64,000 nucleotides of DNA from Chloroflexi bacterium GWB2_49_20. Its GTDB lineage: Bacteria; Chloroflexota; Anaerolineae; Anaerolineales; Villigracilaceae. Positions within the stretch are counted from its first letter, which is position 1; every line of letters starts with the position of its first letter. The translations under genes and the position numbers were made by a program. The stretch is from contig MGMF01000028.1 of the NCBI GenBank assembly GCA_001796335.1, positions 1-64,000 of the forward strand, written 5' to 3'. The notes beneath the pieces were generated by a model. That model was given only the letters and a program-made list of their open reading frames with translations, searched no databases and had not been told where the DNA came from. Positions 20,304 to 46,832 of the stretch are shown here, piece by piece.

Positions 20304-20313
20304 CATTCTGGCG

Positions 20314-30744: not shown

Positions 30745-30746
30745 TC

Positions 30747-31712: not shown

Positions 31713-31717
31713 GTACC

Positions 31718-32788
31718 ATGCAAACTATACCTGATAAAAATAGTCCAGATCAAATTCGCAACGATGCTTTATTTCTAGGAAAAATCCCCTCTTCACCCCA
31801 TATTGAAGAGTCCATCTCGGTGCCTTTGCTCGAGATCCGTGATCTGACCATCCATTTTATCGTCCACCGCCGGGTGACTGGTCCGAACGTAGTGGTGCAT
31901 GCAGCAGATAAGGTCAGTTTGTTTGTCAAAAGAGGCGAAACCCTTGGTTTGGTAGGTGAAAGCGGATCCGGCAAGACCACTGTTGGGCGTGGTGCACTCA
32001 GGTTGATTGAACCTACCTCGGGCGAAGTGTTTCTCAATGGTCAGAATATTTTGAAGGTGCATACCCGAAAATTGCGTGACATGCGCCGCAAGATGCAAAT
32101 GGTCTTTCAAGACCCGGCAGATTCTCTCAACCCGCGTTTTACATGCCGACAAACATTGGTGGATGCGTTATCACATGCTTGTTATGGATCACAAGATATC
32201 TTAAGAAAAGCTCTTGATTTGCTTGAGAGTGTCGGGCTCAATCCATCGGACCTGGATAAATATCCGCATCAATTTAGTGGAGGCCAGCAACAGCGCATTG
32301 CCATTGCCCGCGCTCTTGCTTTTACTCCGGAACTGCTCATCCTGGATGAACCCACAGCTTCCCTGGATGTTTCTGTAAAAACTCAGGTCACCCAGTTATT
32401 GCGTGAGCTGCAAAAAAAGTTCAATCTGAGTTTTATTCTCATCTCGCATGACCTTAGCAATGTCAAGTATATGACCAACCGGGTTGCGGTTATGTATCTG
32501 GGACAGATCATTGAAATTGGCAATACCTCAGATATCTTTTCCAAGCCTATGCACCCATATACAAGGGTTTTAATTGACTCTGTTCCAGTGCCAGACCCGG
32601 ATCAAAAGCGAAAACGCGCTTCATTAATTGGAGAGATCCCGAGTGCGACCGAGCCACCTGCAGGCTGCCGGTTTCATACTCGCTGCCCGATCCGGTTTGA
32701 AATATGCGATCAAAAAGAGCCGCACCTGGCGAAATTGGCAAATGGTCACATGGTTGCCTGCCATCTGGTTAATTCAAGCTCAGAGTAA
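31718..32788 (+). CDS. ABC transporter ATP-binding protein, DppF-like
   Basis: Second ATPase of the importer, 356 residues. An N-terminal stretch of about 38 residues precedes the ABC domain and is longer than usual. Motifs are Walker A GESGSGKTT, signature FSGGQQQRIAIARAL, Walker B LLILDEPTASLD and switch ISHDLSNVKYM. The C-terminal extension has HPYTRVLIDSVPVPDPDQKRK and a cysteine group (GCRFHTRCPIRFEIC). It ends the transporter genes; the dehydrogenase follows after 33 nt, so transcription probably continues. Confidence 0.92.
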   Translation: MQTIPDKNSPDQIRNDALFLGKIPSSPHIEESISVPLLEIRDLTIHFIVHRRVTGPNVVVHAADKVSLFVKRGETLGLVGESGSGKTTVGRGALRLIEPTSGEVFLNGQNILKVHTRKLRDMRRKMQMVFQDPADSLNPRFTCRQTLVDALSHACYGSQDILRKALDLLESVGLNPSDLDKYPHQFSGGQQQRIAIARALAFTPELLILDEPTASLDVSVKTQVTQLLRELQKKFNLSFILISHDLSNVKYMTNRVAVMYLGQIIEIGNTSDIFSKPMHPYTRVLIDSVPVPDPDQKRKRASLIGEIPSATEPPAGCRFHTRCPIRFEICDQKEPHLAKLANGHMVACHLVNSSSE

Positions 32789-32821: not shown

Positions 32822-33931
32822 ATGAGCATAAACAAGATGAAAGCGATCGTTTGGGATGGACGAAATTTTCCGGATGGTCTGACCTATACTGATGTTGATA
32901 TACCAAAAATAAGGCCTGGCTGGGCTCTGGTCAATACCAAAGCTGCTGGCATCTGCGGTTCAGATCTTCATTACCTGTTGGGCTATACCCGTAGTTGGAT
33001 CCCGGACAAGAATCTGCCCGCTGTTCTGGGGCATGAGAACGCGGGTGTTGTAGTCGAAGTGGGTGAAGGTGTTACCAGTGTCAAACCCGGCGATCGGGTT
33101 GCCATTGAACCACTTCATGGATGTTTCGAGCGTGGCTTGCCACCTTGCCCGATGTGCAAGATCGGTAAATATCACATTTGTAAGAATGGTTTGACGCATG
33201 TTGGCATACCCCTGGTTGAGATGCTGCCAGGTGGTTATGGTGAATATTCAATTGCTCATGAAAGCCGGTTGTTCAAAGTGCCGGATAATGTGACGCTGGA
33301 AGATGCAGCTCTGCTGGATATCCTTGCAGTGGGAGTACATGCGGTTAAATTGGTCCACCCGGGTATGGGAGATTCAACGGTCGTTTATGGTTGTGGCATC
33401 ATTGGTTTGGATATGATCCAATGTTTGCGGGTGGAAGGGGTAAAAGACATCATCGCAATTGCCAAATATGGTTTCCAGGCTGAAGTTGCAAAAAAATTGG
33501 GCGCTACGGAAACCATTGTTTTGCACAAGGATGTGGATCCGGTCAAGGAAGTTATGAAACTGACCAATGACTGGGGAGTGGACCAGGTGTATGAATGCGT
33601 CGGTGGAGAGACAGATGCCCTCGACCAGTCTGTTGGGATGTGCAGAATGGGTGGTCAGGCTGTGATGTTAGGGGTTTTCCCCGGTCATCGCCCCATGGAT
33701 CTTTTCAGCATGCTTTGGAAGGAAGTCAATATCATATCCTCCAACAGCTATTCTACTGCTGGTTTAGTGCGTGAGTTCCAACTGGCAATGGACCTATTGC
33801 GGGATGGCAAAGTTTCCCACAATGAACTGATCACCCATCGGTTTCCCCCAGAGCAATGGCAGGAAGCTTTAAACGTGGCTATCTCCAAGGGGAAACTCCA
33901 ATCAATAAAAACCATGTTTGTACGGAGTTGA
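32822..33931 (+). CDS. Zinc-dependent medium-chain dehydrogenase (first of a tandem pair)
   Basis: MDR-family alcohol/polyol dehydrogenase of 369 residues. Catalytic zinc ligands are the Cys in GICGSDLHYLLGYTR and the His-Glu pair in LGHENAG. The structural-zinc lobe has cysteines in HGCFERGLPPCPMCKIGKYHIC, with a longer gap after the first Cys than the standard CxxCxxCx7C. The NAD(P) fold is VVYGCGIIGLDMIQCLRVEGVKDIIAIAK. A close paralogue follows at 33969. With KDPG aldolase and KDG kinase downstream, oxidation of a sugar acid or polyol is plausible; an amino-alcohol is another option. Confidence 0.9.
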   Translation: MSINKMKAIVWDGRNFPDGLTYTDVDIPKIRPGWALVNTKAAGICGSDLHYLLGYTRSWIPDKNLPAVLGHENAGVVVEVGEGVTSVKPGDRVAIEPLHGCFERGLPPCPMCKIGKYHICKNGLTHVGIPLVEMLPGGYGEYSIAHESRLFKVPDNVTLEDAALLDILAVGVHAVKLVHPGMGDSTVVYGCGIIGLDMIQCLRVEGVKDIIAIAKYGFQAEVAKKLGATETIVLHKDVDPVKEVMKLTNDWGVDQVYECVGGETDALDQSVGMCRMGGQAVMLGVFPGHRPMDLFSMLWKEVNIISSNSYSTAGLVREFQLAMDLLRDGKVSHNELITHRFPPEQWQEALNVAISKGKLQSIKTMFVRS

Positions 33932-33968
33932 ACATGATTTTAACAATATTCCCAAGGAGTCTAATTCT

Positions 33969-35057
33969 ATGAAGGCGGTTGTTTGGGATGGTGGTAAATG
34001 GCCTGAAGGGGTTTCGTACCAAGATTTTGCAACCCCTGAACCGCCTCCTGGTTGGGTGTTGGTAAAAACAGCAGCAAATGGAATTTGCGGTTCCGACCTG
34101 CATTATTTGCTGGGTTATACCCGCCACCTGGTGCATGATGAGAATCTCCCGGCTGTCATGGGGCACGAAGCAGCCGGTCTGATCGAAAACCTTGGTGAAG
34201 GTGTCCTTGGCTTGAAAGTTGGCGATCGGGTGGCTCTTGAACCGCTGCATGCCTGCCGTGAACTGGGGTTGCCGCCTTGTCCGATGTGCCAGACGGGTAA
34301 TTACCAGCTCTGCCCTCATCTTAGCATCGTGGGAATACCGATTGGTCGCATGATCCCGGGTGGGTATGGAGAGTACTGTCTTTACCATCATACCCGTGTC
34401 TTCAAGATTCCGGACCATGTCAGCCTTGAAGAAGCTGCCCTGCTCGATACACTTGCTTGCACAGTGCACGCCATCAATCTGGCCCGGCCGGTCCCGGGCG
34501 AAACCGCTGCGGTTATCGGGTGTGGGATCATTGGGATTGATACCATACAATGCCTTAAAGCTGCTGGGCTAAAAGATATCCTGGCAGTCTCAAAGTATGA
34601 ATGGCAGGGCGAGATGGCGCGCAAGTTTGGCGCCACAGAAGTGATCATTTCCGTTGGTAATTCTGATCCCGCAAAAGAAGTCAAACGCCTGACCCAAGGC
34701 TGGGGAGTCGATCAGGTTTATGAATGCGTGGGAGGTAATTCCGATGCCATGCAGGAAGCCCTTGGCATGGTTCGTCCAAAAGGGAAAATAATCATGGAAG
34801 GTGTATTCTCGGGAGATCGACCTTTTGACATGTTGACACTCCTGTTACGCGAGTCACCGATTTTGCCATCCATGTGTTATTCCTATTACGAAGGAAGACG
34901 CGAATTTCAAATGGCGATTGATATGATCAGTCATGGAAAAGCCGAGCAAGCCTCGATGATCACCCATCGCTTTGAAATCAAAGACTGGCGGGAGGCGATC
35001 CAGACTGCCATCGATAAGAATCGCACGCATGCCAGTAAAGTGATGTTCATTTATTAG
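33969..35057 (+). CDS. Zinc-dependent medium-chain dehydrogenase (second of a tandem pair)
   Basis: Paralogue of the preceding dehydrogenase, 362 residues, alike along its whole length: the same GICGSDLHYLLGYTR, LPAVMGHEAAG, GLPPCPMCQTGNYQLC and AVIGCGIIGIDTIQC motifs. ATG 33969 follows aaggagt by 8 nt; the frame is open further upstream into the end of the previous gene but without a ribosome-binding site. Tandem duplication with divergence suggests successive oxidation steps or a heteromeric enzyme. The catalytic-zinc His-Glu pair is intact in both. Confidence 0.9.
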   Translation: MKAVVWDGGKWPEGVSYQDFATPEPPPGWVLVKTAANGICGSDLHYLLGYTRHLVHDENLPAVMGHEAAGLIENLGEGVLGLKVGDRVALEPLHACRELGLPPCPMCQTGNYQLCPHLSIVGIPIGRMIPGGYGEYCLYHHTRVFKIPDHVSLEEAALLDTLACTVHAINLARPVPGETAAVIGCGIIGIDTIQCLKAAGLKDILAVSKYEWQGEMARKFGATEVIISVGNSDPAKEVKRLTQGWGVDQVYECVGGNSDAMQEALGMVRPKGKIIMEGVFSGDRPFDMLTLLLRESPILPSMCYSYYEGRREFQMAIDMISHGKAEQASMITHRFEIKDWREAIQTAIDKNRTHASKVMFIY

Positions 35058-35134: not shown

Positions 35135-35689
35135 ATGGAAGAAAAAGAAAAAATGGTACCCCTTTCCACTGCTGTTCGTTTATTTACAACGGGCATGGAA
35201 TGGGAAGCAGGTCTATTTATTGAGACCTTCCGTGAACTCATAAAAAGAATGCCAAAAGAAGAAGCGCGCGAGATTTTGGGAAAGGCGATGTATCGGACGG
35301 GTCATAGGTTGGGCGTGGAAGCCCGCGAATTCTCAAAAACCCAAAAAGGACCACAGGGGATGGCTGAGGCCTGGGATGTCTTGTATGGTGTGGGGACTAA
35401 AGAAGCCCCTGTTTTGAACGATGACCAGTTCGTTTTCCGGGTTTTCGGTTGTGCTGCCTTCGATCTTATGAAACGCTGGGGAATGGAACCCGATGAGATT
35501 CTGTTTGTGGGCAGGGCCTATTGTGCTGGAGATACGGGTCAGGCAAAGGGTTTTGATGAAGACATGTTCTTCCAGCACACCCGGAGATTGATGGCCGGTG
35601 ATGATGACTGTGTATGGGATTACACAACCTATGAGCAGGAAAAAGCCAAATCAGCCGCGGCAGTCGCAGAATTGGGTTTGGACAAATAA
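35135..35689 (+). CDS. L-2-amino-thiazoline-4-carboxylate hydrolase-like protein
   Basis: Small protein of 184 residues with no signal peptide. The C-terminal pattern FFQHTRRLMAGDDDCVWDY and the preceding FDLMKRWGMEPDEILFVGRAYCAGDTGQAKGF resemble the ATC-hydrolase family (PF14196), whose members carry a conserved GD-x-x-C element near the end. The founding activity opens the ring of 2-amino-thiazoline-4-carboxylate to S-carbamoyl-cysteine, but most members are uncharacterised. The ribosome-binding site is ctggaggttc. It lies in the operon between the dehydrogenases and the UroD-like methyltransferase, so ring opening or binding of a pathway intermediate is possible. Assignment is from pattern recognition only. 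Confidence 0.55.
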   Translation: MEEKEKMVPLSTAVRLFTTGMEWEAGLFIETFRELIKRMPKEEAREILGKAMYRTGHRLGVEAREFSKTQKGPQGMAEAWDVLYGVGTKEAPVLNDDQFVFRVFGCAAFDLMKRWGMEPDEILFVGRAYCAGDTGQAKGFDEDMFFQHTRRLMAGDDDCVWDYTTYEQEKAKSAAAVAELGLDK

Positions 35690-35723
35690 TCTCTGGTTCT
35701 AGGTGAATTTCCCAAGGATTTTT

Positions 35724-36845
35724 ATGCTCAGCCATCGTGATCGCGTCCTGACAACCCTGGATCATCATCAACCTGACCGCCTACCAATTGACCTGGGAGG
35801 TACACAGACTGGTCTTCTGGTGGAGCCATATAATGCGCTTAAACGGAAGTTGGGGATGAATTCACCCACCACTGTCAGTAACATGGTGCTCGGCTTGGCG
35901 CATATCGAAGATGAAGTACTGGAGAGATTCGACATCGATTTTCGGCATGTTCTTCCCGGGCAGGCAGATCAATTTCATTTTCAACTCCTTCCAGATGATA
36001 GTTTCCATGATGAGTTTGGCACCCGCTGGAAAAGACCACCCGGTGGTTATTATTACGATATGGTTGAATTTCCTCTGGCATCCTGTTCCCTACGAGACCT
36101 GGCCAATTTTAACTGGCCTGACCCGCTGGACCCTGGCCGTGTGCGCGGGGTACGTGAACAGCTTGACAGTTTGCGAACCACCACCGACTTCGCACTGGAA
36201 GCCGGCCTTTTTGGCTTATGGGAAACTTGCTGGTTCACCGTTGGTCTGGAGCGCTGGTTGCTGGCATGCATTGATAGCCCTGACTTTGTGGAAGCCCTGC
36301 TGGACCGCACAATGGATTTTCTCATGCGCATGCATGCAGCCTATTTGGATGTATCCGGCTCTTACCTTGACCTGGTCACACTTTGGGACGATTATGGTAC
36401 TCAATCTTCAACCCTGATCTCACCGGCCCAGTGGCGAAAACTGGTTAAACCGCGTCTAGCCAATCTGGTGGCGATGATCCGCTCAAAGACCAGTGCATAT
36501 ATAGGTATCCATAGTTGTGGTTCCATTGCCTCCATTTTGGATGACTTGTGTGAGATTGATATCCAGGTGATCAACCCTGTCCAAGTCTCTGCAAGGAACA
36601 TGTCGATCACTGAACTGAAGAAACGATATGGGACCCGGCTGACTTTTTGGGGAGGCATTGATACCCAGTTTTTGCTGCCTCATGGCGGCCCTGCAGATGT
36701 TCAAAAAGCTGTCAAAAGCACCTTGGATCTTTTTGCGCAGGATGGCGGTTATATCCTGGCTGCAGTACATAATATTCAACCCGGTGTTCCTCCAGAAAAC
36801 ATCCTGGCCATGTATGATACAGCCAGGTTTATGACGAAGATTTGA
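35724..36845 (+). CDS. UroD-like methyltransferase (module B)
   Basis: Uroporphyrinogen-decarboxylase-superfamily protein of 373 residues, beginning MLSHRDRVLTTLDHHQPDRLP, the usual opening of MtaA/MtbA-like and betaine-associated members. IGIHSCGSIASILDDLCEID supplies the His and Cys expected for zinc, and TFWGGIDTQFLLPHGGPADVQKAV the C-terminal barrel strand. ATG 35724 follows aagga; the frame is open to a GTG 21 nt upstream. It sits 19 nt before the MttB gene and probably receives or passes the methyl group from the corrinoid protein. It is longer than, and diverged from, the homologue at 24784. Confidence 0.85.
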   Translation: MLSHRDRVLTTLDHHQPDRLPIDLGGTQTGLLVEPYNALKRKLGMNSPTTVSNMVLGLAHIEDEVLERFDIDFRHVLPGQADQFHFQLLPDDSFHDEFGTRWKRPPGGYYYDMVEFPLASCSLRDLANFNWPDPLDPGRVRGVREQLDSLRTTTDFALEAGLFGLWETCWFTVGLERWLLACIDSPDFVEALLDRTMDFLMRMHAAYLDVSGSYLDLVTLWDDYGTQSSTLISPAQWRKLVKPRLANLVAMIRSKTSAYIGIHSCGSIASILDDLCEIDIQVINPVQVSARNMSITELKKRYGTRLTFWGGIDTQFLLPHGGPADVQKAVKSTLDLFAQDGGYILAAVHNIQPGVPPENILAMYDTARFMTKI

Positions 36846-36864: not shown

Positions 36865-38361
36865 ATGTTGAGGAAGCAGGAAAATTCAATGCCAAATAAC
36901 AGAACCAGCGGAATCCACCCAAATATTCATCAGAATTTCAAGATCCTGAGTGAACAGGATCTTGATAAGATCCACGCTGCAGCCATGCGTATCCTTGAGA
37001 AAACCGGGATTCGCTTTGATAGTCCACAGGCGATCTCTTTGCTAGCAAACGCTGGCGCTGAAATAAATGGATCCCAAGTTCGCATCCCTGCTAAAATTGT
37101 TGAAAAAGCGATCCAAACCGCACCATCCAAAGTTACATTATATGCCCGTGATCCGCAGAAGAATTTATACCTTGGTCAGGGCTGCATCCACTTTTCCAGC
37201 GGTTTCGGAGCCACTTGGGTGCGCGATTTGGATACAGGTCTGGTGCGCGATGCAAACCTGCAAGACCTGGTTACTTTTACCAGGTTAGCAGAAGCGTTGA
37301 AATTAGTGCACATGGTGCTGTTCGCTGTGGTGCCCCAGGATGTTCCCTCGCGGCTGCGCGATGTGATCTGCACGGCAGAAGTGCTCAAGAACACCACCAA
37401 ACACATCCAACTCAGCCTTGAAAGCTCTGAAACATTGGACGAGGTTTTAAATATTGCGCGCACATTCGTTGGCAAGGGTGATCCCCTGCCCATTTCTGCC
37501 GGGGGAGTACCAAATTCACCGCTGCATTACACGGAGGATGTTTCCACCAAGTTTATCCGCCTGGCCAGGGAAAATGTACCTTGTCTCATCGTCACTGGCT
37601 GCATGGCTGGGGCAACTGGCCCTGTGACCCTGGCCGGCTTATTAGTTCAGCAAACCGCTGAATTCCTGGCTGGAACTGTACTTCATCAACTAGCCAATCC
37701 AGGTGCTCCGTTAATTTACGGCACCTTTTCTGGCGGGTTTGATATGCGTTATACAAAGCTGGCACTTGGCGGCCCCGAGATATCATTGATCACCTGTGCC
37801 ACCCAGCAGCTCTGTGAACGATACCAAATCCCCATGGGATATGCCACCGGTGGAGTGACTGATAGCCCGGTCAGTGACATCCAGACCGGCATCGAAAAGA
37901 CTTTTGGAGTCCTGTCCGCTGCCATGGCGGGTGTGGATGTGATCCATGATGCAGCCTCAGGGTTATTGGGAGCCGGTATGGTTTCTAGCCTGGGGCAATT
38001 GATCATCGACCATGACATGTGCGCATCCATAAAATATTTTCTGGAGGGGATCCCGGTTTCCAGCCGCACCCTGGCAGAAGAACTGATCTCCTCAACCGGT
38101 CCCGGCGGAAATTACATGCTCAGTGACCATACCTTGACAGAGTTTCGCAAATCGTTATTTATCACTCCCATACGTGCCCGTAATCTGGACCCGGTTAATA
38201 CTTCGGAACCCGGTTCGTACTTATTGGTAAATGCAAACAAACAGGCAAAGAAAATATTGGACACTTTCCAACCCAAACCCATCGCAGCACAGCAGTTGAC
38301 TGAAATGGATCAAATAATCGAAGAAGCTCGTTTATTAATCAACAAGCATACAGGAGGTTGA
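36865..38361 (+). CDS. MttB-superfamily corrinoid methyltransferase, non-pyrrolysine (module B)
   Basis: COG5598 methyltransferase of 498 residues (490 if ATG 36889, which has a cagga site, is the start). It shares the landmarks of the module A paralogue: LSEQDLDKIHAAAMRILEKTGI, HFSSGFGATWVRD, MAGATGPVTLAGLLVQQTAEFLAG, YGTFSGGFDMR and PMGYATGGVTDSPVSD. There is no internal amber codon. It is flanked by a UroD-like protein and AOR, and the operon later encodes a corrinoid protein (46206), giving most of a three-component methyltransferase system. The methyl donor is unknown; its importer is the oligopeptide-type one, unlike module A, so the substrates probably differ. Confidence 0.92.
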   Translation: MLRKQENSMPNNRTSGIHPNIHQNFKILSEQDLDKIHAAAMRILEKTGIRFDSPQAISLLANAGAEINGSQVRIPAKIVEKAIQTAPSKVTLYARDPQKNLYLGQGCIHFSSGFGATWVRDLDTGLVRDANLQDLVTFTRLAEALKLVHMVLFAVVPQDVPSRLRDVICTAEVLKNTTKHIQLSLESSETLDEVLNIARTFVGKGDPLPISAGGVPNSPLHYTEDVSTKFIRLARENVPCLIVTGCMAGATGPVTLAGLLVQQTAEFLAGTVLHQLANPGAPLIYGTFSGGFDMRYTKLALGGPEISLITCATQQLCERYQIPMGYATGGVTDSPVSDIQTGIEKTFGVLSAAMAGVDVIHDAASGLLGAGMVSSLGQLIIDHDMCASIKYFLEGIPVSSRTLAEELISSTGPGGNYMLSDHTLTEFRKSLFITPIRARNLDPVNTSEPGSYLLVNANKQAKKILDTFQPKPIAAQQLTEMDQIIEEARLLINKHTGG

Positions 38362-38362
38362 T

Positions 38363-40276
38363 ATGAGTTCATCCATGCTTGGCGATATCTTGTTGGTGGA
38401 TCTGACCAACCGCAGGATATCCAAACGTCCATACACCAGGGAGTTGGCCAACCAGTATATTGGTTGCCGTGGCTATAATGCTGCCTTGTTATGGGAAATG
38501 GTTCCCAAAGGAACGGACCCCCTGGGACCTGACAATGTACTGATATTTGGCACCGGACCGCTGACTGGAACATCCGCCCCCAGTTCAGGTCGCATTTCGG
38601 TTACCACTAAAAGCCCCTCTACCCATATTTACCTGAAAACCAATGTTGGTGGTGCCTGGGGCGGTGAATTTCGATTTGCCGGTTACAGTTATGTAATTTT
38701 CACAGGGAAAGCCGACCAACCTGTGTACTTATGGATTAACGATGATACCGTGGAAATTCGTGATGCCCGGCACTTGTGGGGTAAGGATGTCCGTCAAACT
38801 GAGCATATATTGCAACAGGAAAATAACGACAGCCAGTTGAAAGTGGCCAGCATTGGGCAGGCAGGCGAAAACCTGGTCATGTTTGCTGCCATTATGTGTT
38901 CAAATTACAACGCGGCAGCCCGCGGGGGTGCAGGTGCGGTGATGGGATCCAAAAACCTCAAAGCCATCGCCGTGCGCGGTTCACGGCCTGTCCTCGTGGC
39001 TGAACCGACTCGATTTAAAGAACTGGTGGACAATTCCTGGGAGCTGTATCACAAGCAATCCGGCGCTCTGAATACTCATATTTATGGAACTTCGGGCAGC
39101 GTAACCGCCGTCAACGAAATGCACATCCTGCCAACTCGCAATTTCCAGGAAGGGTATTTTGAGGATGCCAATAAAATTTCCGGCCAGGCACTGGTGGATG
39201 GTGGGTATTTAAAGCGAAGAGTCGGATGCTATTCATGTCCCATGTCGTGTCATCGTTACTCGGAAGTAAAAGATGGAAAATATAAAGGCTCTTATGCAGG
39301 AGGTCCTGAATACGAAACCTTCAGCGCTTTGGGATCTGGTTGTGGCGTGAGTGATATTGAAGCCATAATTCGAGCCAATGAACTGTGCGATATATATGGT
39401 CTCGACACAATATCAACAGGTAGTGTGATCCAGTGGGCCATGGAATGTCACCAGCGTGAGCTTGATTTTGATCGTGATAATTTGGATCTCTCCTGGGGTA
39501 ATGCAGATGCAGTCCTTCTCCTGGTGGAAAAAATCGCATTTCGGCAGGGATTAGGCAATATGCTTGCGAATGGGGTTAAACGTGCCTCCGAAGAGATGGG
39601 GCAGAAATCTGAAGATTGGGCGATCCAGGCCAAAGGCTTGGAGCAGTCTCGTGTAGAAACTCGCTCAGCATACTCGTATGCCCTGGCTTTCATGGTTAAT
39701 CCACGCGGTCCGGACCATTTGATGACCGAGACACTGGCTGAATTTGGTATGTCCCCCGAAATGCTGGATGTGATTGAAAAAGCAACCGGGGATAAGAAAT
39801 ACGCAACTCCGTATATCACCGAAAAACGCCCGGAGATCGTCCGATGGCATGAGGATGTATATGCTTTGACCGATGCGCTCGGCCTGTGTGTATTTGCTTC
39901 AACAGCCCAATATTACATGACCCCTAAATTGATGGCTGATCTGTTCTCGGCTTCGGTAGGTATCCCTTGCACCGAAGAACAAGGCATGAGCTTGGGGAAG
40001 AAGATCGTAACCATGGAACGGTGTTTCAACACAAGAGAAGGTGCAACGCGTGAACACGACCGTTTGCCCAAGCGCTTGATGACTGAACCTCTGAAGGATG
40101 TCACGGACCGCCCAAACATCAACTCTTTGGAAGTGATGGGTCCTCTGCTGGATCGTTACTATGCCATGCATGGGTGGGATGTAGTCACCGGTCGTCCTAC
40201 CAGGTCCATTTTGGATGGGTTTTCGTTAAAATCCTGGGCAGATGAATTGGAAAAGCTGGGATATTTACCCAAATAA
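38363..40276 (+). CDS. Tungsten aldehyde:ferredoxin oxidoreductase (module B)
   Basis: AOR-family subunit of 637 residues, paralogous throughout to the protein at 9615. Cluster ligands C289, C292, C296 (CYSCPMSC) and C509 (DALGLCVF) are present. The pterin segment is AARGGAGAVMGSKNLKAIAVRG and the N-terminal motif is YIGCRGYNAALLWEMVP. It starts 1 nt after the MttB stop with aggagg overlapping the end of that gene, so expression is tightly linked. Electron partners are probably the ferredoxin at 41478 and the flavoprotein at 42281. The aldehyde may come from the dehydrogenase or demethylation steps. Confidence 0.95.
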   Translation: MSSSMLGDILLVDLTNRRISKRPYTRELANQYIGCRGYNAALLWEMVPKGTDPLGPDNVLIFGTGPLTGTSAPSSGRISVTTKSPSTHIYLKTNVGGAWGGEFRFAGYSYVIFTGKADQPVYLWINDDTVEIRDARHLWGKDVRQTEHILQQENNDSQLKVASIGQAGENLVMFAAIMCSNYNAAARGGAGAVMGSKNLKAIAVRGSRPVLVAEPTRFKELVDNSWELYHKQSGALNTHIYGTSGSVTAVNEMHILPTRNFQEGYFEDANKISGQALVDGGYLKRRVGCYSCPMSCHRYSEVKDGKYKGSYAGGPEYETFSALGSGCGVSDIEAIIRANELCDIYGLDTISTGSVIQWAMECHQRELDFDRDNLDLSWGNADAVLLLVEKIAFRQGLGNMLANGVKRASEEMGQKSEDWAIQAKGLEQSRVETRSAYSYALAFMVNPRGPDHLMTETLAEFGMSPEMLDVIEKATGDKKYATPYITEKRPEIVRWHEDVYALTDALGLCVFASTAQYYMTPKLMADLFSASVGIPCTEEQGMSLGKKIVTMERCFNTREGATREHDRLPKRLMTEPLKDVTDRPNINSLEVMGPLLDRYYAMHGWDVVTGRPTRSILDGFSLKSWADELEKLGYLPK

Positions 40277-40350
40277 GACCATTGTAAAGTATTTAATTGT
40301 GATGAAATACCTCATCGGAGCAAAAAATTATTTAGAAAAAGGATGTCAAC

Positions 40351-41454
40351 ATGTTTACAAAAGCCAATATAGGACAATTTCTGGAAGGCCTTGCAATTTT
40401 AGGGACAGGTGGGGGCGGTTCTCCCGAGTGGGGCAGAATCATCCTGGAGAACGATTTGGACAAAGGCCGCGCAGCAACCATTGTAAAACCTGAAAATGTA
40501 CCGGATGATGCAATTGTGGCAAGCGGTGGAATCATGGGTTCGGTAAAAACCCTTGAAAAAATCAGTCCGAGCGAATTGGTTGCGGGTTGGGAAAAGCGTT
40601 TCGAGCTGACGGAAGCCTTTGAACTTCAGGCTAAGACCATCGGCAAGAAGATTGATTATATTGTTGCTTTTGAAATGGGCGGGCTAAATACTCCTGTCAT
40701 GCTGTCACTCGGTGCCCGCACCGGTATACCTGTAATCGATGGAGACGGATTAGGCCGGGCTGCGCCAGAGACACACATGATCTCATTTATTGGCCACGGA
40801 GTTTCCTTGACTCCGATGCCATTGGTGGATTCTGCCGGGAATGCAGTCGTTGTTCATTATGGGGTTGATAACACCTATGCGGACCAGCTAGGGCGTTGGG
40901 TGGTCACCCACGGTGGTGGTATGGGTGCGAATTGCCATTATCCGATGAGTGGGAAAAAGCTGAAAGAAGCGGTGATCCCTTACACGATCACGGGTGCTTC
41001 TGCACTCGGTGAAGTAGTATATAAAGCCCGCACAGAAAAAAATGACCCGGTAGGGGCGATCGCCAGGTTCGTTGGCGGCCAGCATATCCATACTGGTACC
41101 ATCCAAAAAATTCAGGAAAAAGAGTGGGAAGGTTTCTACTTCATCAATCTCGAATTAAGCGGGGGAGCCGAACTGGTGATCAAGAATGAATATATGTCGC
41201 TTTTCCTGAATGGGAAACCTGTTACCATCTTTCCAGACTTTATCTTGGGCCTGGATCCTCAAACTGGCCGTGGTTTGATGAGCGCTGACTTAAAAATCGG
41301 GGATGAAATGGCTTTAGTGGTTTACCCGTGTCATCCCCGTTTGAGGAATGCCTTAAAATCCAAGGAAGGTCAGAATGCTTTTTCGCCAAAGCGCTTTGGT
41401 CAGCCCGACTTGATCTATAAACCGGTGGAAGAATTGCTCAATGGAATTAAATAA
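40351..41454 (+). CDS. DUF917-family protein
   Basis: Complete DUF917 protein of 367 residues. The N-terminal domain has FLEGLAILGTGGGGSPEWG and ASGGIMGSVKTLEKI, then EMGGLNTPVMLSLGARTGIPVIDGDGLGRAAPETHM. The C-terminal domain follows with FVGGQHIHTGTI and YMSLFLNGKPVTIFPDFI. Family members often accompany hydantoinases. Pfam now, as I recall, names the domains after S-methyl-thiohydantoin desulfurase, but this activity cannot be confirmed from sequence. The truncated counterpart is at 20314. It lies between AOR and the ferredoxin, spaced 74 and 23 nt, as part of the operon. Confidence 0.88.
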   Translation: MFTKANIGQFLEGLAILGTGGGGSPEWGRIILENDLDKGRAATIVKPENVPDDAIVASGGIMGSVKTLEKISPSELVAGWEKRFELTEAFELQAKTIGKKIDYIVAFEMGGLNTPVMLSLGARTGIPVIDGDGLGRAAPETHMISFIGHGVSLTPMPLVDSAGNAVVVHYGVDNTYADQLGRWVVTHGGGMGANCHYPMSGKKLKEAVIPYTITGASALGEVVYKARTEKNDPVGAIARFVGGQHIHTGTIQKIQEKEWEGFYFINLELSGGAELVIKNEYMSLFLNGKPVTIFPDFILGLDPQTGRGLMSADLKIGDEMALVVYPCHPRLRNALKSKEGQNAFSPKRFGQPDLIYKPVEELLNGIK

Positions 41455-41477
41455 AACTCTTGGAAAGGAGGACTGAA

Positions 41478-41990
41478 ATGAAACAAATCAAAGTGGATGT
41501 TGAAAAATGTACCGGTTGTGGCCAATGTGCTTTGACTTGTTCTTTCAAAAACGTTGATAAATTTGAATTGAACCAGAGCAATATCCGCATTATACAATGG
41601 GAGGATATTTGTCTCTCCGTTCCATCACTTTGCCAGCAATGCAGTGATACCCCTTGTATCGTCTCCTGCCCGACAGAAGCGATCAGTGTAAACTCTGCCA
41701 CAGGTGCAATTATTATCGATACTGACCTGTGTACCCAGTGCTATGAATGCCAGGAGGCGTGCCGTTACCAGGTTATCCATACCACCTTGGATGGTTATCC
41801 CCTCACCTGTGACTTGTGCGGCGGTACTCCTAAATGTGTAGCCGTATGTTTCCCGGGGGCATTAAGATTTGAAGAGATCCATGATGCTGAAAAGGAACCT
41901 TTCAAGGTGCTCGCATCGATCTTGAGTGACAGGGCATCTGGTAAACTTGTTTCTCCACCCGCGGAATTGAGTTCGAGGAGTGTCACGTGA
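41478..41990 (+). CDS. Poly-[4Fe-4S] ferredoxin (module B)
   Basis: Iron-sulfur protein of 170 residues with sixteen cysteines: CTGCGQCALTC, CQQCSDTPCIVSC, CTQCYECQEAC and CDLCGGTPKCVAVC. The arrangement is that of the AOR-associated ferredoxin at 9153. ATG 41478 is preceded by aaaggagg (41464-41471); the frame is open 18 nt further upstream to a TTG inside that site. Its stop overlaps the start of the next gene in GTGA. It probably takes electrons from the module B AOR. Confidence 0.9.
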   Translation: MKQIKVDVEKCTGCGQCALTCSFKNVDKFELNQSNIRIIQWEDICLSVPSLCQQCSDTPCIVSCPTEAISVNSATGAIIIDTDLCTQCYECQEACRYQVIHTTLDGYPLTCDLCGGTPKCVAVCFPGALRFEEIHDAEKEPFKVLASILSDRASGKLVSPPAELSSRSVT

Positions 41991-42277
41991 CCACCAAACG
42001 AATTGTGGTTCATGTTGAGATTCGTTTGGCAAAAGGTGCACGCATCAACGATCTGGTTTTGGAGAACGATCAAGCCACCTTGCAGGATGCATTATTGGCT
42101 ATGTCCAAAGAAGAATGGGCACATGATCTTTTTGAAATAACAGATGGAGGTGCCGACTTGATCCCTGGTTTCATGATGGTCCTGGGTAATCGCATGGTGC
42201 AAAAATGGGAACTCGAGAACACCCTGGTCAATCATGAAGCGGACTTGAAATTTGTTCAAGTGGTTCCGGGAGGATAA
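41987..42277 (+). CDS. MoaD/ThiS-like small protein with C-terminal Gly-Gly (module B)
   Basis: Protein of 96 residues ending in KFVQVVPGG, a diglycine tail of the MoaD/ThiS type. The interior (VEIRLAKGARINDLVL, then FMMVLGNRMVQKWEL and DLKFVQVVPGG) fits the beta-grasp order of strands, with the VLGN turn equivalent to the VNG turn of MoaD. It starts at GTG overlapping the ferredoxin stop, with gaggag 6 nt upstream. It is too diverged from the module A protein for a simple recent duplication. A role in tungsten cofactor supply or AOR maturation is inferred from position. Confidence 0.68.
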   Translation: MTTKRIVVHVEIRLAKGARINDLVLENDQATLQDALLAMSKEEWAHDLFEITDGGADLIPGFMMVLGNRMVQKWELENTLVNHEADLKFVQVVPGG

Positions 42278-42280: not shown

Positions 42281-43030
42281 ATGGATAAGAAGATACGCAT
42301 TGTTGGTGTTTGCAGCAGCCCTCGCCGCGGCAACACAGAGATATTGTTAAAAGAAGCCCTCCGGGCAGCTGAAGCGGCTTATCCTGAAATTTCAACTGAG
42401 TTTGTCGGCCTCAGGGCGAAAGAGATCAAGGCTTGTTACGATTGTAAGGCTTGTGAACGCAGAAAGGCAGATTCTTTGGTCGAACAATGTGTCCTCAAAG
42501 ACGATTGGGCAGAAGTGGTGCGGCCACTGGTCGACCCTGTCCCTAATGGGATCATTCTGGCGTCCCCGGTTTATTTTTCCGATGTCAATTCCCACATGCG
42601 GGCTTTTATGGAAAGGTGCACCTCCCTTGCAAAGCCCTATTGGTTTTCACAGATTCCATTTTCAGCTCCAGATTTTTCGCGTACCGCTGCAGGGGGTCTG
42701 GCCGTTGGATTTCATCGTCATGGAGGGCAGGAATCCGCCATTCTCTCGATCCTGCGTTTTTGCGTCATCATGGGGATGGTGGGTGTTGGAAGCTCGGATC
42801 CGGTTCATGGACCGGTCGGATATTATGGCGGTGCAGCTTGGGAAGATGTCACCGGGGTTAGTGGTCGCGAATCAGTCAAGGAAGATGCCTGGGGTTTGTT
42901 CTCAGCCCGGGTGGTGGGACGCAAGGTCGCCCGAACGGCTATCATGTTGGCCAAAGCTCCACAAGTACCCGCAGTGAGTGAGGCGTATGTCTCTCCGATG
43001 GAGTCTTACCGGAAAGAACAAAACGATTGA
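42281..43030 (+). CDS. NADPH-dependent FMN reductase/flavodoxin-fold protein
   Basis: Flavoprotein of 249 residues. The FMN phosphate loop is GVCSSPRRGNTEILLKEAL near the N-terminus, and GIILASPVYFSDVNSHMRAFMERC is the flavodoxin-fold ring-binding segment. Between them CYDCKACERRKADSLVEQC provides four cysteines, a pattern seen in iron-sulfur flavoproteins (Isf), where CxxCxxCx(4-7)C binds a [4Fe-4S] cluster; here the last Cys is further away. It starts 3 nt after the sulfur-carrier gene. It may link ferredoxin or NADPH to AOR. Confidence 0.85.
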   Translation: MDKKIRIVGVCSSPRRGNTEILLKEALRAAEAAYPEISTEFVGLRAKEIKACYDCKACERRKADSLVEQCVLKDDWAEVVRPLVDPVPNGIILASPVYFSDVNSHMRAFMERCTSLAKPYWFSQIPFSAPDFSRTAAGGLAVGFHRHGGQESAILSILRFCVIMGMVGVGSSDPVHGPVGYYGGAAWEDVTGVSGRESVKEDAWGLFSARVVGRKVARTAIMLAKAPQVPAVSEAYVSPMESYRKEQND

Positions 43031-43550: not shown

Positions 43551-44318
43551 ATGACTGAAAAACTATTAAAAGGAAAAGTAGCACTTGTGACGGGAGCATA
43601 TCGCAATTTGGGGGCAGTCACAGCCGAGATGCTTGCCAGTTATGGAGCGTCGGTGGTCATCAATGACCTTGACCTGCCAGAGATTGAAAAACAACGTGAC
43701 CAGTTGCTGGACAGAATTCGGTCTCATGGAGTCCAGGCAACTGCCATATCGGCTGATCTTTCCAGGAGCGATCAAATACGCAGCATGTGCCTGTCTGCCA
43801 TAAAATACTTTGGTAAAGTGGACATCCTGGTCAACAATGCCGGCCCTTTCAGCATGGATCCTTATCTCACGATGAAGGAAGAAATTTATGACCGAGTGAT
43901 GGATGTTAATTTGAAAGCGGTCTATCTAACTGCCAAGGAGATTGTTCCTGTCATGAAAGCCAATGGATGGGGACGAATTGTCAATATGTCAGCCGGTTCT
44001 GCTTATGTGCGCAACCACAGCATCTATGGTCTGGCTAAACTCGGGGTGCAGATCATCACCGAGGAGCTTGCCCTGGAAGTAGGTCCTGAGGTAACGGTCA
44101 ACGCCGTGGCTCCCGGGCAAATCTACGAGAGTCTCCCCGAAATCCTCGAGATTGACCCGACATTCGGTGAAAGATACATGGCTCGTTCACCATTAAAAAC
44201 CCTGGTAACCCGCAAAGAGGTTGCCTTGTTGATCGCCAGTTTATGCACCCCTGCTTATGATAAAGTGACTGGTGTGACTTTGAAAATTGATGCTGGTGCA
44301 GAGATCTGGCGTTTTTGA
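43551..44318 (+). CDS. Short-chain dehydrogenase/reductase
   Basis: Classical SDR of 255 residues: TGAYRNLG as the cofactor loop (near 13-20, a variant of TGxxxGxG), NNAGPFS, the catalytic Ser in NMSAGSAYVRN, and YGLAKLG with the Tyr-Lys pair. The C-terminal ITGVTLKIDAGAEIW is the usual SDR ending. It precedes KDPG aldolase and KDG kinase genes in the same direction with 61 nt spacing. Oxidation or reduction of a sugar-acid intermediate such as a 2-keto-3-deoxy or 5-keto acid is a reasonable idea. Confidence 0.9.
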   Translation: MTEKLLKGKVALVTGAYRNLGAVTAEMLASYGASVVINDLDLPEIEKQRDQLLDRIRSHGVQATAISADLSRSDQIRSMCLSAIKYFGKVDILVNNAGPFSMDPYLTMKEEIYDRVMDVNLKAVYLTAKEIVPVMKANGWGRIVNMSAGSAYVRNHSIYGLAKLGVQIITEELALEVGPEVTVNAVAPGQIYESLPEILEIDPTFGERYMARSPLKTLVTRKEVALLIASLCTPAYDKVTGVTLKIDAGAEIWRF

Positions 44319-44379: not shown

Positions 44380-45021
44380 ATGGATATACTTGAAATCACA
44401 GGAAGGTACGGCCTCCTCTCTGCCATAGAGATCCAAAAATCGCAGGATGCTGTGCCGCTGGGAAGAGCATTGTTGGATGCAGGGTTGTCTGTGGCAGAGA
44501 TCACCTTTCGTACCGCTGCTGCTGCGGACGCCATCCGGGTAATGGCGAAGTCTTACCCTCAGATGACCATTGGGGCAGGATCGATTGTATTTGTCTCACA
44601 GGCGGAAGAGGCGGTCGCTGCCGGGGCAAGCTTCATTGTCTCAGCTGGGTTTAATCCAGATTTGGTGGATTGGTGTATAGGTAATGGTATTCCAACCCTT
44701 CCGGGTGTTGCAACAGCCTCTGAGATTACCATGGGTATGGTGCGTGGGCTTAAAGTCTTAAAATTCTTCCCTGCCGAAGTGATGGGTGGTATCAGTGGCC
44801 TTAAGGCATTATCAGCACCCTTTCCGGCCATGAAATTCATACCGATGGGTGGAGTCTCTGCTGCAAACATGGCAGATTATTTGCGGTTACCATATATTCA
44901 TGCCATCGGGGGTAGTTGGACTGTGAACAAGAAGTTGATCGCCGAAGGAAACTTTGTTGAAATTACTCGCCTGACCCTTGAAGCATTATCAATCTTTCAA
45001 GCAGTAAGAGGCATCTCATGA
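44380..45021 (+). CDS. eda: 2-dehydro-3-deoxy-phosphogluconate (KDPG) aldolase
   Basis: Class I aldolase of 213 residues, the normal family size. The Schiff-base lysine is K128 in VLKFFPAE. Catalytic E40 and substrate R44 are in [31 protein letters not shown] and [10 protein letters not shown] are further family blocks. It splits KDPG, or KDPGal, into pyruvate and glyceraldehyde 3-phosphate. The kinase that would make its substrate starts inside its stop codon (overlap ATGA). Together they form the lower part of an Entner-Doudoroff-type route for 2-keto-3-deoxy sugar acids. Confidence 0.93.
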
Positions 45022-46073
45022 ACGAAAAGAGCACACGTACCATAACATTGGGCGAAACCATGTTACGCCTGAAGTCACCCGGGTTCGAACGGCTTCTGCA
45101 ATCTGGAAATTTAGAAGCCACCTTTGCGGGGGGTGAGGCTAATGTCGCTGTATCTCTGGCAAATTATGGTGAGGAGGTAGCATTTGTCACCGCCTTGCCA
45201 AAAAATGCAATCGCTGAGGCTTGCATATCTTTTCTGCGCGGAACCGGAGTGGATACCAGCCTCATCATCCGCTATGGTGAGCGTATGGGTGTTTATTACC
45301 TGGAGTCAGGAGCTAATCAGCGCCCCTCGGTTGTCATTTATGATCGCTCTAACTCGTCCATTGCCACTGCAGGTCCCGAACAGTTTGATTGGATAAAGAT
45401 CTTTTCTGGAGCAAGTTGGTTCCACATCACTGGCATCACGCCTGCGATCAGTCAAAAAGCCGCCGATACAGCCCTGGCGGCGGTTCAGAATGCCAGGAAA
45501 CTTGGCTTGACGGTATCTTGTGACTACAACTTTCGCAAGAATTTATGGAAATATGGGAAGAAACCAGTCGAGGTCATGACCGAACTGGTTAATTACGTTG
45601 ATGTGGGTATTGCAAATGAAGAAGATTGCCAGCTTGCACTGGACGTTAAAGTGGATGAAAAGTCCTGGAGTCAGGATGTAAAAAGTGGCACATTAAATAT
45701 TGCCAAATATCAAGCCTTAACCGAAGCTGTCCTCGAGAAATTTCCAAACTTGAAGATGCAAGCAATCACCCTGAGACAAAGCTACAGTGCTGATCATAAT
45801 GGCTGGTCTGGATGCCTCCATGACCGGAAAGAATTCTATGTTGGGCCAAAATACGATATAACCGATATCGTGGATCGGGTTGGATCCGGAGATTCATTTG
45901 CCGGCGGATTGATCTACCGCCTGGTAAATGGGTTCAGTCCCAAAGAAGCCCTTGACTTTGCTGTCGCAGCTTCGTGCTTGAAGCACTCTATCCTTGGAGA
46001 TTTTAATCGCGTCTCGGCAGAAGATGTTCTCCGTTTGCTAGGAGGCGATGTCTCAGGTCGTGTACAGAGATAA
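45018..46073 (+). CDS. kdgK: PfkB-family 2-dehydro-3-deoxygluconate (KDG) kinase
   Basis: Carbohydrate kinase of 351 residues. [31 protein letters not shown] is the PfkB substrate-binding region (about 37-67), and the catalytic Asp is in the anion-hole motif [13 protein letters not shown] (about 286-298). [24 protein letters not shown] is characteristic of KDG kinases. The 4-nt overlap with the aldolase gene supports the assignment. It phosphorylates KDG to KDPG in the cytoplasm. Confidence 0.92.
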
Positions 46074-46205: not shown

Positions 46206-46832
46206 ATGGACCTAAAGAATATATATCAGAATATTATCGATGGAAATAATATTGAAATTGGAAAAGAGGTGATGGCTGCCCTGGAGGCAGGTGCAGATCC
46301 GGAAGAAATTCTAAAGAGTGGGTTGATTGCTGCTATGAAAGAGGTTGGCAATCGCTTTGAAGAAGGAGACCTCTTTGTACCCGAAATGCTTGTTTCTGCC
46401 AGGGCGATGCAGGTTGGATTGAAGATATTGAAACCACATCTTGCCAAGGCGAATGTCAAAGCCGTCGGTAAGGTGGCCATGGGAACTGTAAAAAGTGACC
46501 TGCACGACATTGGCAAAAATCTGGTGGCAATGATGTTGGAAGGTGCTGGTTTTGAGGTGGTGGATCTGGGCGTTGATGTCGCTCCGGAAGCATTTGTAAA
46601 AGCTGCACAGAATGGTATTCAACTACTCGGGATGTCAGCACTGCTCACTACAACCATGAGCAACATGGAAACCACAATGCAGGCGTTAAATACAGCCGGG
46701 GTGCGCAAAAATGTTAAAGTGATGATTGGTGGCGCCCCCGTCACTCAAGAATATGCCAAGAAAATCGGTGCCGACGGTTTTGCTGCCGATGCTTCCAGCG
46801 CGACACGGATCGCTCTCCAATTGTTGGGGTGA
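46206..46832 (+). CDS. Corrinoid (B12-binding) protein of a methyltransferase system
   Basis: Cobalamin-carrier protein of 208 residues of the MtbC/MttC/MtaC type. A helical cap domain is at about 1-85 (AALEAGADPEEILKSGLIAAMKEVGNRFEEGDLFVPEMLVSARAM). The Rossmann-like B12 domain follows with the lower-ligand motif DLHDIG (D98, H100, G103), GMSALLTTT and IGGAPVTQEYA. It cycles between methylated and Co(I) states, passing a methyl group from MttB to a UroD-like acceptor enzyme. It is the only corrinoid protein in the window, so it may serve both MttB enzymes. No RamA-type reactivase is seen nearby. Confidence 0.94.
   Translation: MDLKNIYQNIIDGNNIEIGKEVMAALEAGADPEEILKSGLIAAMKEVGNRFEEGDLFVPEMLVSARAMQVGLKILKPHLAKANVKAVGKVAMGTVKSDLHDIGKNLVAMMLEGAGFEVVDLGVDVAPEAFVKAAQNGIQLLGMSALLTTTMSNMETTMQALNTAGVRKNVKVMIGGAPVTQEYAKKIGADGFAADASSATRIALQLLG

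Follow-up and report, generated by a model that had tools for sequence, protein, structure and literature searches.

A clade of aldehyde ferredoxin oxidoreductases encoded with DUF917 proteins, and in a minority of loci near an MttB-family methyltransferase, in Anaerolineae and Bipolaricaulota-set genomes

Genes for an MttB-superfamily methyltransferase (MttB1), an aldehyde ferredoxin oxidoreductase (AOR; AOR1), a DUF917 protein and an iron-sulfur (Fe-S) protein lie side by side at 36865-41990 in a 64,000-nt stretch of the Chloroflexi bacterium GWB2_49_20 genome (contig MGMF01000028.1, positions 1 to 64,000; hereafter the window). Is this arrangement a unit in which demethylation is directly coupled to a tungsten oxidoreductase, as a sequence-only reading of the window had proposed, or do the two enzymes serve something larger? 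The tight packing behind that proposal is real: the open reading frames (ORFs) of all four core genes are open at the coordinates in Table 1, and the gaps are 1 nt between MttB1 and AOR1, 74 nt between AOR1 and the DUF917 gene, and 5 nt between the DUF917 and Fe-S genes. However, the four genes do not stand alone, since the packing continues on both sides. Upstream, 13 nt separate a gene of the ATC_hydrolase family from a UroD-superfamily gene, which in turn ends 19 nt before MttB1; downstream, a MoaD-like ORF overlaps the Fe-S gene by 4 nt, and a flavoprotein gene begins 3 nt further. Very probably, the four genes are the central part of a single catabolic cluster that comprises about 20 genes (cluster A). 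What stands out here looks like an AOR-DUF917 cluster with an optional MttB, belonging to one large undescribed breakdown pathway rather than to a two-enzyme machine.

The domain assignments of the core genes are clear. MttB1 matched the Pfam family MTTB (PF06253) with 329 bits (cut-off 25) but stayed below the equivalog TIGR02369 for the pyrrolysine-containing trimethylamine methyltransferase (386.6 of 525 bits), and its frame is open with no in-frame amber codon. Its closest solved structures are 2qne and the glycine betaine methyltransferase 9yce, which is a matter of resemblance only. AOR1 matched AFOR_N (262 bits, cut-off 30) and AFOR_C (388 bits, cut-off 27), and at the positions of E313 and H448 in 1aor, which we take to be the catalytic residues, it has E318 and H452. 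By these domains and the conserved Glu/His pair, AOR1 is assigned to the tungsten aldehyde ferredoxin oxidoreductase family, with a predicted activity of that type. Among the solved structures it is closest to 1aor; it scored 403-345 bits with 1aor, 9mqx, 9g7j and 8c0z, compared to only 252 bits with 4z3w, and a BamB-like ring-reducing role was therefore considered the less fitting candidate. A plasmid search with AOR1 returned 86 records, the best 10 of which were all at or below 39% identity. The product of 40351-41454 is a DUF917 protein (S-Me-THD_N, 138 bits; S-Me-THD_C, 113 bits), although it did not reach the thiohydantoin/S-methyl thiohydantoin desulfurase equivalogs of NCBIfam (50.9 of 440 and 59.2 of 450 bits). 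The last core gene had been called a ferredoxin. Its product is indeed an Fe-S protein, with four 4Fe-4S cysteine motifs recognized by eye, but it is similar to Fe-S subunits in AOR/WOR5 complexes of known structure (6x6u_B, 8c0z_C and 9mqx_E) and is thus better named an AOR electron-transfer subunit. In addition, an AGGAGGT within the 3' end of mttB1 fits a ribosome-binding site for AOR1, which makes translational coupling of the two genes likely.

A phylogenetic analysis placed AOR1 in a clade of 24 sequences with a support of 99 (SH-like approximate likelihood ratio test, SH-aLRT); a subset of 15 gave 100/99 in a careful tree. All 24 members possess NPRGPDH around the histidine aligned with H448 of 1aor, a motif found in none of 27 other AORs. 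The histidine itself is present in 24 of 24, and the glutamate aligned with E313 in 23 of 24. The clade was found in 10 of the 396 genomes of the class that were searched, the source genome and G657 included, and in 9 of 100 genomes of a Bipolaricaulota set (at least 45% identity and at least 548 bits; the next best match had 456 bits). The G657 match is identical in place and score to that of G302. Ten further regions were taken from the class and nine were kept, G527 being dropped with a contig contained in a G388 contig. This overlap was noted in its own right: C393 of G527, a genome of the same class, is contained in C111 of G388, a genome of the Bipolaricaulota set, and as the G388 AOR groups with that of G382, a binning error probably explains the G527 copy.

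The neighbours of the AOR genes were scored with phmmer over about 10 kb at each locus, where contigs allowed, for the 24 clade loci and 18 control AOR loci (6 from the source genome, 10 from the Bipolaricaulota set, G192 and G011). A DUF917 gene lay beside the AOR in 20 of the 24 clade loci and in none of the controls (per genome, 17/18 vs 0/13) and is the most specific neighbour of the clade; the matches in G302, G554c and G485 are weak (26-30% identity). The Fe-S subunit was found in 21 of 24 loci vs 3 of 18. Other frequent neighbours were the 2-keto-3-deoxy-6-phosphogluconate (KDPG) aldolase (14/24 vs 0/18), the 2-keto-3-deoxygluconate (KDG) kinase (12/24 vs 0/18), UroD (12/24 vs 0/18), the flavoprotein (12/24 vs 1/18), IclR (12/24 vs 0/18), the SBP_bac_5 solute-binding protein (13/24, cluster A counted, vs 2/18), the class V aminotransferase (9/24 vs 0/18) and the racemase (8/24 vs 0/18), and the ATC_hydrolase family occurred in five clade loci, cluster A counted. 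In contrast, neither MttB (5/24 vs 2/18, p 0.3) nor the corrinoid protein (5/24 vs 3/18) distinguished the two sets. Nineteen of the 24 clade loci showed no MttB within about 10 kb, several of the contigs being shorter than that, and none was present in the fetched DNA of the nine added Anaerolineae-class loci.

Several features of the sample define how these counts are to be read. Cluster A is one of the 24 loci and matches its own queries by construction; when it is left out, the counts are 19/23 for DUF917, 13/23 for the aldolase, 11/23 for the kinase, 11/23 for UroD and 4/23 for MttB. The loci are partly dependent: G377 contributes three from a single contig, with flanks that overlap, G554 three, and G334 and the window two each. 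Short contigs (3 to 22 kb) are common among clade and control loci alike. The score limit for the FMN reductase was lowered from 80 to 55 bits when the Anaerolineae loci were added, the other limits being unchanged, and the short-chain dehydrogenase column and the control G011 joined only in the final count. From the alignments, trees and neighbour counts, the AOR1 clade is shown to be a distinct one, lying with an Fe-S subunit and a DUF917 protein in several Anaerolineae and Bipolaricaulota-set genomes. The predicted flavoprotein, UroD protein, KDPG aldolase, KDG-kinase-like protein and importer are often beside it, and an MttB is in a minority of loci. As a separate observation, the G522 and G437 clusters (L175 and L177) contain 2-oxoacid:ferredoxin oxidoreductase-like genes, recognized by eye, which separate the flavoprotein gene from that of the AOR Fe-S subunit.

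The adjacency of MttB and AOR was examined from the methyltransferase side as well. The source genome has 8 AORs and 11 MttBs, of which two, MttB1 and the MttB2 of a second cluster in the window, lie no more than 2 kb from an AOR, against 0.18 expected for uniformly placed genes; the same two are the only ones within 10 kb. For the 57 other MttB-bearing genomes among 301 sampled Chloroflexota, 136 MttBs were compared with 145 AORs. An AOR lay no more than 2 kb away for 1 of the 136, no more than 5 kb away for 2 and no more than 10 kb away for 4; for uniformly placed genes, 0.8 and 1.5 would be expected at the 2-kb and 5-kb limits, respectively. Adjacency in other Chloroflexota is thus at about the chance level. 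At most four MttB candidates, the best ones, were scored per genome, so that a second AOR-flanking MttB of G192 was left out of the 136. The single case of direct adjacency is in fact an MttB-AOR-MttB operon with a 4-nt overlap in G192 (C35; L036 10739-15591), and adjacency does therefore occur in another genome, although the MttBs there branch elsewhere in the tree and the AOR lacks NPRGPDH and has a tryptophan at the active-site histidine position. This operon follows a methylaspartate-ammonia-lyase-like gene (by eye) and an alcohol dehydrogenase (ADH) gene. Among the best 80 of at least 533 confirmed MttB-family relatives in named genomes, an AOR was seen in the fetched DNA of four loci; this is a lower bound, because no flank exceeded 10 kb and many were cut, and the search misses L039, in which the AOR is 14 kb away. 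Two further observations concern methyltransferases of other types. In the source genome, L021 (5787-12374 of G000 C26) encodes an Fe-S protein, an AOR, a MoaD-like protein, a carbamoyltransferase-like protein, a corrinoid protein and then a 458-residue MtmB-like protein (the last names by eye), which looks like a further AOR near a putative methylamine-type methyltransferase. MttB matches with one in-frame TAG, as in pyrrolysine MttB, were found in G005, G055, G112, G120 and G224, all of one family.

The clade of MttB1 itself gave a different picture. It comprises seven sequences (SH-aLRT 100) from six genomes: the source genome (two copies), L038/G302, which is an Anaerolineae metagenome-assembled genome, and G301, G334, G377 and G399, which share a phylum with L039, a metagenome-assembled genome titled Bipolaricaulota. 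Among the MttBs compared, those outside this clade are 36% or less identical to MttB1, and no relative above 35% identity was found outside the source genome in the 301 sampled genomes of its phylum. The AOR1 clade is present in all six genomes. The distance between the MttB and AOR genes is 1 nt in cluster A and 1.9 kb in the second cluster of the source genome; it is 1.9 kb in G334, 5.8 kb in G399, 7.7 kb in G377 and 14 kb in G301, within one large cluster each, and in G302 the two genes are on separate short contigs. Of the 100 Bipolaricaulota-set genomes, four have the MttB1 clade (at least 39% identity; next best 35%), all within the nine that have the AOR clade (4/4 vs 5/96 of the others; hypergeometric probability about 3e-5 calculated by hand, for genomes that are not independent), and five of those nine are without the MttB1 clade. 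Genes that recur in at least two of these clusters encode ADH1 (57-60%), DUF917 (42-52%) and the flavoprotein (42-46%), as well as UroD, the racemase, the NicX-like protein, the class V aminotransferase, the aldolase and kinase of the KDPG and KDG types, ATC hydrolase and importer components. The gene-neighbourhood statistics suggested by the sequence-only reading cut both ways: a general MttB-AOR association was rejected on the chance-level adjacency in Chloroflexota and on the 5/24 vs 2/18 count, while genomes with the MttB1 clade all carry the AOR clade.

What would such a pathway degrade? We tentatively propose that the AOR may oxidize an aldehyde intermediate of a sugar-type compound on a route ending in a 2-keto-3-deoxy acid, a possibility that we hold short of probable. 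A polyhydroxy compound resembling a sugar, amino sugar or sugar acid would be imported, and its N- or O-methyl groups, where present, would be moved by the MttB, UroD or MtaB-like proteins to the corrinoid protein. The dehydrogenases would act on the imported compound, and the AOR would convert the aldehyde carbon to an acid, passing two low-potential electrons via the four-cluster subunit to ferredoxin. The 2-keto-3-deoxy acid would then be phosphorylated by the KDG kinase and split by the KDPG aldolase to pyruvate and triose phosphate. The class V enzyme beside the AOR could form the aldehyde from an amine, or turn a 2-amino-aldonate into the 2-keto-3-deoxy acid. Demethylation and aldehyde oxidation would be steps of one pathway, and hence not a coupled pair. 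The variation of the methyltransferases among the clade loci (UroD in 12, MttB in five and an MtaB-like protein in G301) is consistent with this proposal, as is the retention of AOR, importer, aldolase and kinase without a recognized MttB in G382, G388, G328, G431, G460 and G402. Sugar-type binding proteins in the G334, G337, G382 and G388 regions (that of G388, the one scanned, being closest to the xylF and rbsB models, under the cut-off) and an N-acetylglucosamine 2-epimerase in the G328 region also point to a sugar. The proposal is further favoured by the enrichment of aldolase, kinase, UroD and aminotransferase genes over the controls, the aldolase score above the TIGR01182 cut-off, the Glu and His retained in the AOR, and the corrinoid and MtaB-like proteins as parts for methyl transfer. 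UroD-superfamily proteins include O-demethylases (PMC13222342), and the MttB-superfamily substrates reported to date comprise trimethylamine, quaternary amines and phosphocholine (PMC12155760).

Several observations weigh against the sugar-type proposal. No aldonate or uronate dehydratase was recognized by eye or in general profile scans, with no dedicated profile search made, which leaves the formation of the 2-keto-3-deoxy acid without an enzyme, unless the class V pyridoxal phosphate (PLP) protein or another one serves; cluster A itself is without a class V enzyme. The kinase is under every KDG-kinase equivalog cut-off (210 of 440, 119.5 of 400 and 60.1 of 400 bits), and SBP5/Opp importers carry peptides and other solutes too. 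The aldolase was unseen in 10 and the kinase in 12 of the 24 loci, some of them cut by contig ends, while G337 and G485 are 20-kb regions with neither. The one clade AOR without the catalytic glutamate, which has an alanine in its place (G377 C69; 33372 of the joined L141-L143), is the copy nearest to the MttB in G377, and this copy may be inactive or changed. Finally, the DUF917, racemase, HyuA, ATC hydrolase and NicX-like genes hint at cyclic ureides or N-heterocycles. A narrower version, which we regard as speculative and distinctly doubtful, is an anaerobic route for N-methylated amino sugars. The MttB would strip the N-methyl group (UroD- or MtaB-type proteins the O-methyl), the AOR would oxidize the free C1 aldehyde to a 2-amino-aldonate, and the class V PLP enzyme would eliminate or transfer the amino group, yielding a 2-keto-3-deoxy acid for KDG kinase and KDPG aldolase. 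With AOR, class V enzyme, aldolase and kinase as the core, no separate dehydratase would be needed. To our knowledge, corrinoid demethylation has not been described in combination with a tungsten-dependent route for sugar acids. A route for hydroxyproline betaine via a 2-keto-4-hydroxyglutarate (KHG) aldolase was rejected: a glycyl radical enzyme is found in the G399 cluster only, where it passes the PFL2-3 subfamily and scores 590 of 1100 bits with the HypD equivalog, and the kinase would have no place.

The main rival to the sugar-type proposal takes up the hint just mentioned: an N-methylated, betaine-like ring would be demethylated by the MttB and opened by enzymes of the DUF917, ATC hydrolase or racemase type, and the AOR would oxidize the freed aldehyde. 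The relatives of the DUF917 protein act, by their family names, on thiohydantoins; the hydantoin-racemase family occurs in 8 of 24 loci (cluster B, described below, counted) and ATC hydrolase in 5 of 24; cluster B has HyuA (and HyuB by eye); a NicX-like protein is encoded in the window, G301, G399, G377 and G328; and the class V aminotransferase of the window is closest to pyridoxamine-pyruvate transaminase (219 of 600 bits). Nevertheless, this reading would leave unexplained why 12-14 of 24 loci encode a KDPG aldolase and a KDG kinase, genes of the racemase, NicX-like and Hyu types recur less regularly, and the DUF917 protein is far under the desulfurase cut-offs, so that we consider catabolism of cyclic ureides or N-heterocycles rather unlikely, though it is the most serious contender. 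It is a less likely case that the AOR is a broad aldehyde-detoxifying enzyme lying off the pathway, as may be suspected from the resemblance of AOR1 to 1aor above all other solved structures; AORs of the P. furiosus type have broad specificity. The separate clade, the strictly conserved motif and the constant neighbours instead argue for a specific role.

The coupling put forward in the sequence-only reading fared variously. That MttB and AOR act in one catabolic cluster is upheld, not least by the co-occurrence of their clades in six of six genomes, and oxidation of the demethylated product by the AOR is compatible with both; a dedicated unit of the two enzymes, joining betaine demethylation to oxidation or reduction of the product, is not supported and seems quite improbable to us. 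The 1-nt spacing with the ribosome-binding site inside mttB1, the invariable company of the MttB1 clade with the AOR1 clade, and the G192 operon would all suit such a unit, but there is no MttB in reach at 19 of 24 AOR-clade loci, the MttBs of the other clusters are 1.9-14 kb away with at least two genes between, and adjacency in other Chloroflexota is at the chance level. As to the other suggestion, that the AOR feeds low-potential electrons to corrinoid reactivation, an AOR and a corrinoid protein are indeed encoded in one cluster. Yet two RACo-type matches were found in the genome, one of them containing an in-frame TGA (G000 C26:61375-62115), the corrinoid protein is not enriched near the AOR clade (5/24 vs 3/18), and 76 of the 80 best MttB loci, of at least 533, showed no AOR in the fetched DNA. 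The suggestion is thus disfavoured, and we regard it as very improbable.

The remaining genes of cluster A are listed in Table 1. The Opp importer genes are spaced by 15, 2 and 5 nt, and homologs are present in the G301, G377, G431, G437, G402 and G460 clusters. Relatives of ADH1 in the G301, G377 and G334 clusters are 57-60% identical. The UroD protein (UroD_1) did not reach the MtaA/CmuA models (64.5 of 400 bits for the MtaA equivalog, 54.2 of 235 bits for the other); 11 of 15 aligned UroD sequences, including UroD_1, have HxCG, and 12 of 15 have a histidine at the presumed third metal position, at which MtaA presumably has a cysteine. The MoaD-like protein matched no Pfam or NCBIfam family. 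Urm1, SAMP1 and MoaD structures rank among the folds closest to its model (pLDDT 85.5), at a TM of about 0.6 and with a single Foldseek match at E <= 0.001, and all seven aligned sequences end in GG, the relatives being encoded mostly beside other AORs; the modelled protein thus has the predicted MoaD/ThiS/Urm1 beta-grasp fold with terminal GG. Relatives of the flavoprotein are 42-46% identical in Bipolaricaulota-set clusters but only 26-29% in Anaerolineae clusters. The kinase scored 474 of 700 bits with the kinase half of an aldolase-kinase fusion model. The corrinoid protein scored 211.7 of 370 bits with the MtgC model and did not reach TIGR02370 for the cognate corrinoid protein (189.8 of 215.3 bits), whereas both B12-binding domains exceeded the Pfam cut-offs. 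NicX-like relatives occur in the G301, G399, G377 and G328 clusters. A scan for promoters and terminators gave numbers near the background (28 vs 25.2 and 21 vs 18.9). Apart from these genes, one 648-residue ORF at 48017-49963, beside a Liv-type importer, fuses a GntR/FCD regulator to Peripla_BP_6, and its predicted product is a regulator with a built-in binding protein.

Table 1. Features of the window
Feature	Coordinates	Strand	Basis or remark
Asp/Glu/hydantoin racemase family	6164..6907	+	profile scan
Fe-S protein, AOR2 (9615-11513), Fe-S protein, FAD oxidoreductase, MttB2 (13404-14876)	9153..14876	+	
Class V aminotransferase	19092..20303	+	profile scan
Putative truncated DUF917 remnant (20266-20562) and MoaD-like ORF (20655-20951)	20266..20951	+	
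NicX-like protein (2,5-dihydroxypyridine dioxygenase family)	22523..23578	-	7cn3, E 1e-6
Solute-binding protein, SBP_bac_5 family	27030..28736	+	Pfam PF00496, 299 bits
OppB, OppC, OppD, OppF-type ATP-binding cassette (ABC) importer, four genes	28771..32788	+	names read from translations, no profile
Zn alcohol dehydrogenase ADH1	32822..33931	+	closest models threonine 3-dehydrogenase and scyllo-inosose 3-dehydrogenase, all under cut-off
Second Zn alcohol dehydrogenase	33918..35057	+	54% identical to ADH1; listed TTG start, true start probably later
ATC_hydrolase-family protein (PF14196)	35135..35689	+	53 bits, cut-off 28
UroD-superfamily protein, MtaA-like, with HxCG	35703..36845	+	PF01208, 96 bits
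MttB1, non-pyrrolysine MttB-superfamily methyltransferase	36865..38361	+	PF06253
AOR1, aldehyde ferredoxin oxidoreductase of the NPRGPDH clade	38363..40276	+	Pfam, 1aor alignment, tree
DUF917 (S-Me-THD-like) protein	40351..41454	+	Pfam S-Me-THD_N/C
Four-cluster Fe-S electron-transfer subunit of AOR	41460..41990	+	4Fe-4S domains; listed TTG start, first ATG 41478
MoaD/Urm1-like beta-grasp protein, C-terminal GG	41987..42277	+	96 residues; structure model and Foldseek
NADPH-dependent FMN reductase-like flavoprotein with Cys cluster	42281..43030	+	PF03358
Short-chain dehydrogenase	43551..44318	+	46-47% relatives in G431, G402 and G460 clusters
KDPG/KHG aldolase	44380..45021	+	PF01081; TIGR01182 219.6 bits, above the cut-off of 156
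PfkB-family kinase, KDG-kinase-like	45018..46073	+	PfkB/KDG-like by profile scans
Corrinoid protein, MtgC/MtbC-like	46206..46832	+	B12-binding domains over Pfam cut-offs

The second MttB-AOR pair of the window lies in cluster B (2006-20951). This cluster starts with HyuA, a HyuB-like protein (by eye), the racemase, IclR and an aminotransferase, continues with an Fe-S protein, AOR2, a further Fe-S protein, a flavin adenine dinucleotide (FAD) oxidoreductase, MttB2 and an ABC importer, and ends with the class V aminotransferase, the DUF917 remnant and a MoaD-like ORF. The remnant has 98 residues, 66 of which align with the 40351-41454 product at 53% identity; it is, judging from the sequence, a decayed form of the module that is whole in cluster A. 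AOR1 and AOR2 are 51% identical, and MttB1 and MttB2 42%. AOR2 groups with nine Anaerolineae sequences (SH-aLRT 98), and MttB2 with L038. On these separate groupings a simple tandem duplication of the two clusters was rejected, and old divergence or separate acquisition fits better. Relatives of the class V aminotransferase adjoin the AOR in five Bipolaricaulota-set loci (G301, G399, G377, G337 and G334); the models nearest to this class V enzyme include pyridoxamine and 2-aminoethylphosphonate transaminases, all far under the cut-off.

Several known systems come close to parts of cluster A. With the tungsten AOR/WOR5 complexes (1aor, 6x6u, 8c0z and 9mqx), AOR1 shares AFOR_N/AFOR_C, the catalytic Glu/His positions and CxxCxxxC, and likewise has the gene of a four-cluster subunit beside it; unlike them, it belongs to a clade of its own with NPRGPDH, has a DUF917 neighbour and is encoded in one cluster together with a KDPG aldolase and a KDG kinase. 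The MoaD-like neighbour and, in cluster B, the FAD oxidoreductase are reminiscent of the Aromatoleum AOR, whose gene layout we take to include MoaD-like and FAD oxidoreductase genes, but cluster A is without an FAD subunit. MttB1 has PF06253, no amber codon and a corrinoid gene nearby in common with the quaternary-amine methyltransferases of the MttB superfamily (MtgB, MtpB, MtcB, MtyB and MthB), from which its low identity to MttBs outside its own clade sets it apart; a methyltetrahydrofolate transferase was not recognized by eye in cluster A. UroD_1 shares the fold family and HxCG with the UroD-superfamily O-demethylases and methyltransferases (MtvB, OdmB, MtoB, CdmB and MtaA) but differs from MtaA in its sub-cut-off equivalog score and in the histidine common at the third metal position. 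With the thiohydantoin-degrading DUF917/S-Me-THD enzymes, the 40351-41454 product shares the N and C domains, while missing their equivalogs by far. The aldolase and the PfkB/KDG-like kinase correspond to the lower branch of the Entner-Doudoroff pathway; unlike in that pathway, no dehydratase was recognized, and an AOR stands where an NAD(P)- or quinone-linked dehydrogenase usually acts. In the literature searched, which included the accessible parts of PMC11291895, PMC12155760 and PMC13222342 and few subscription journals, neither MttB with AOR nor DUF917 with AOR was described as one cluster.

The MttB and AOR genes of cluster A belong to one pathway, and the tempting inference of a coupled pair from tight spacing in one genome is hereby corrected. 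With a sequence motif and a constant set of neighbours, DUF917 foremost, the AOR clade now has a definition that opens its substrate to testing. If the demethylation reading is true, the substrates of MttB-type enzymes would extend past quaternary amines to compounds whose skeleton is used via sugar-acid enzymes.

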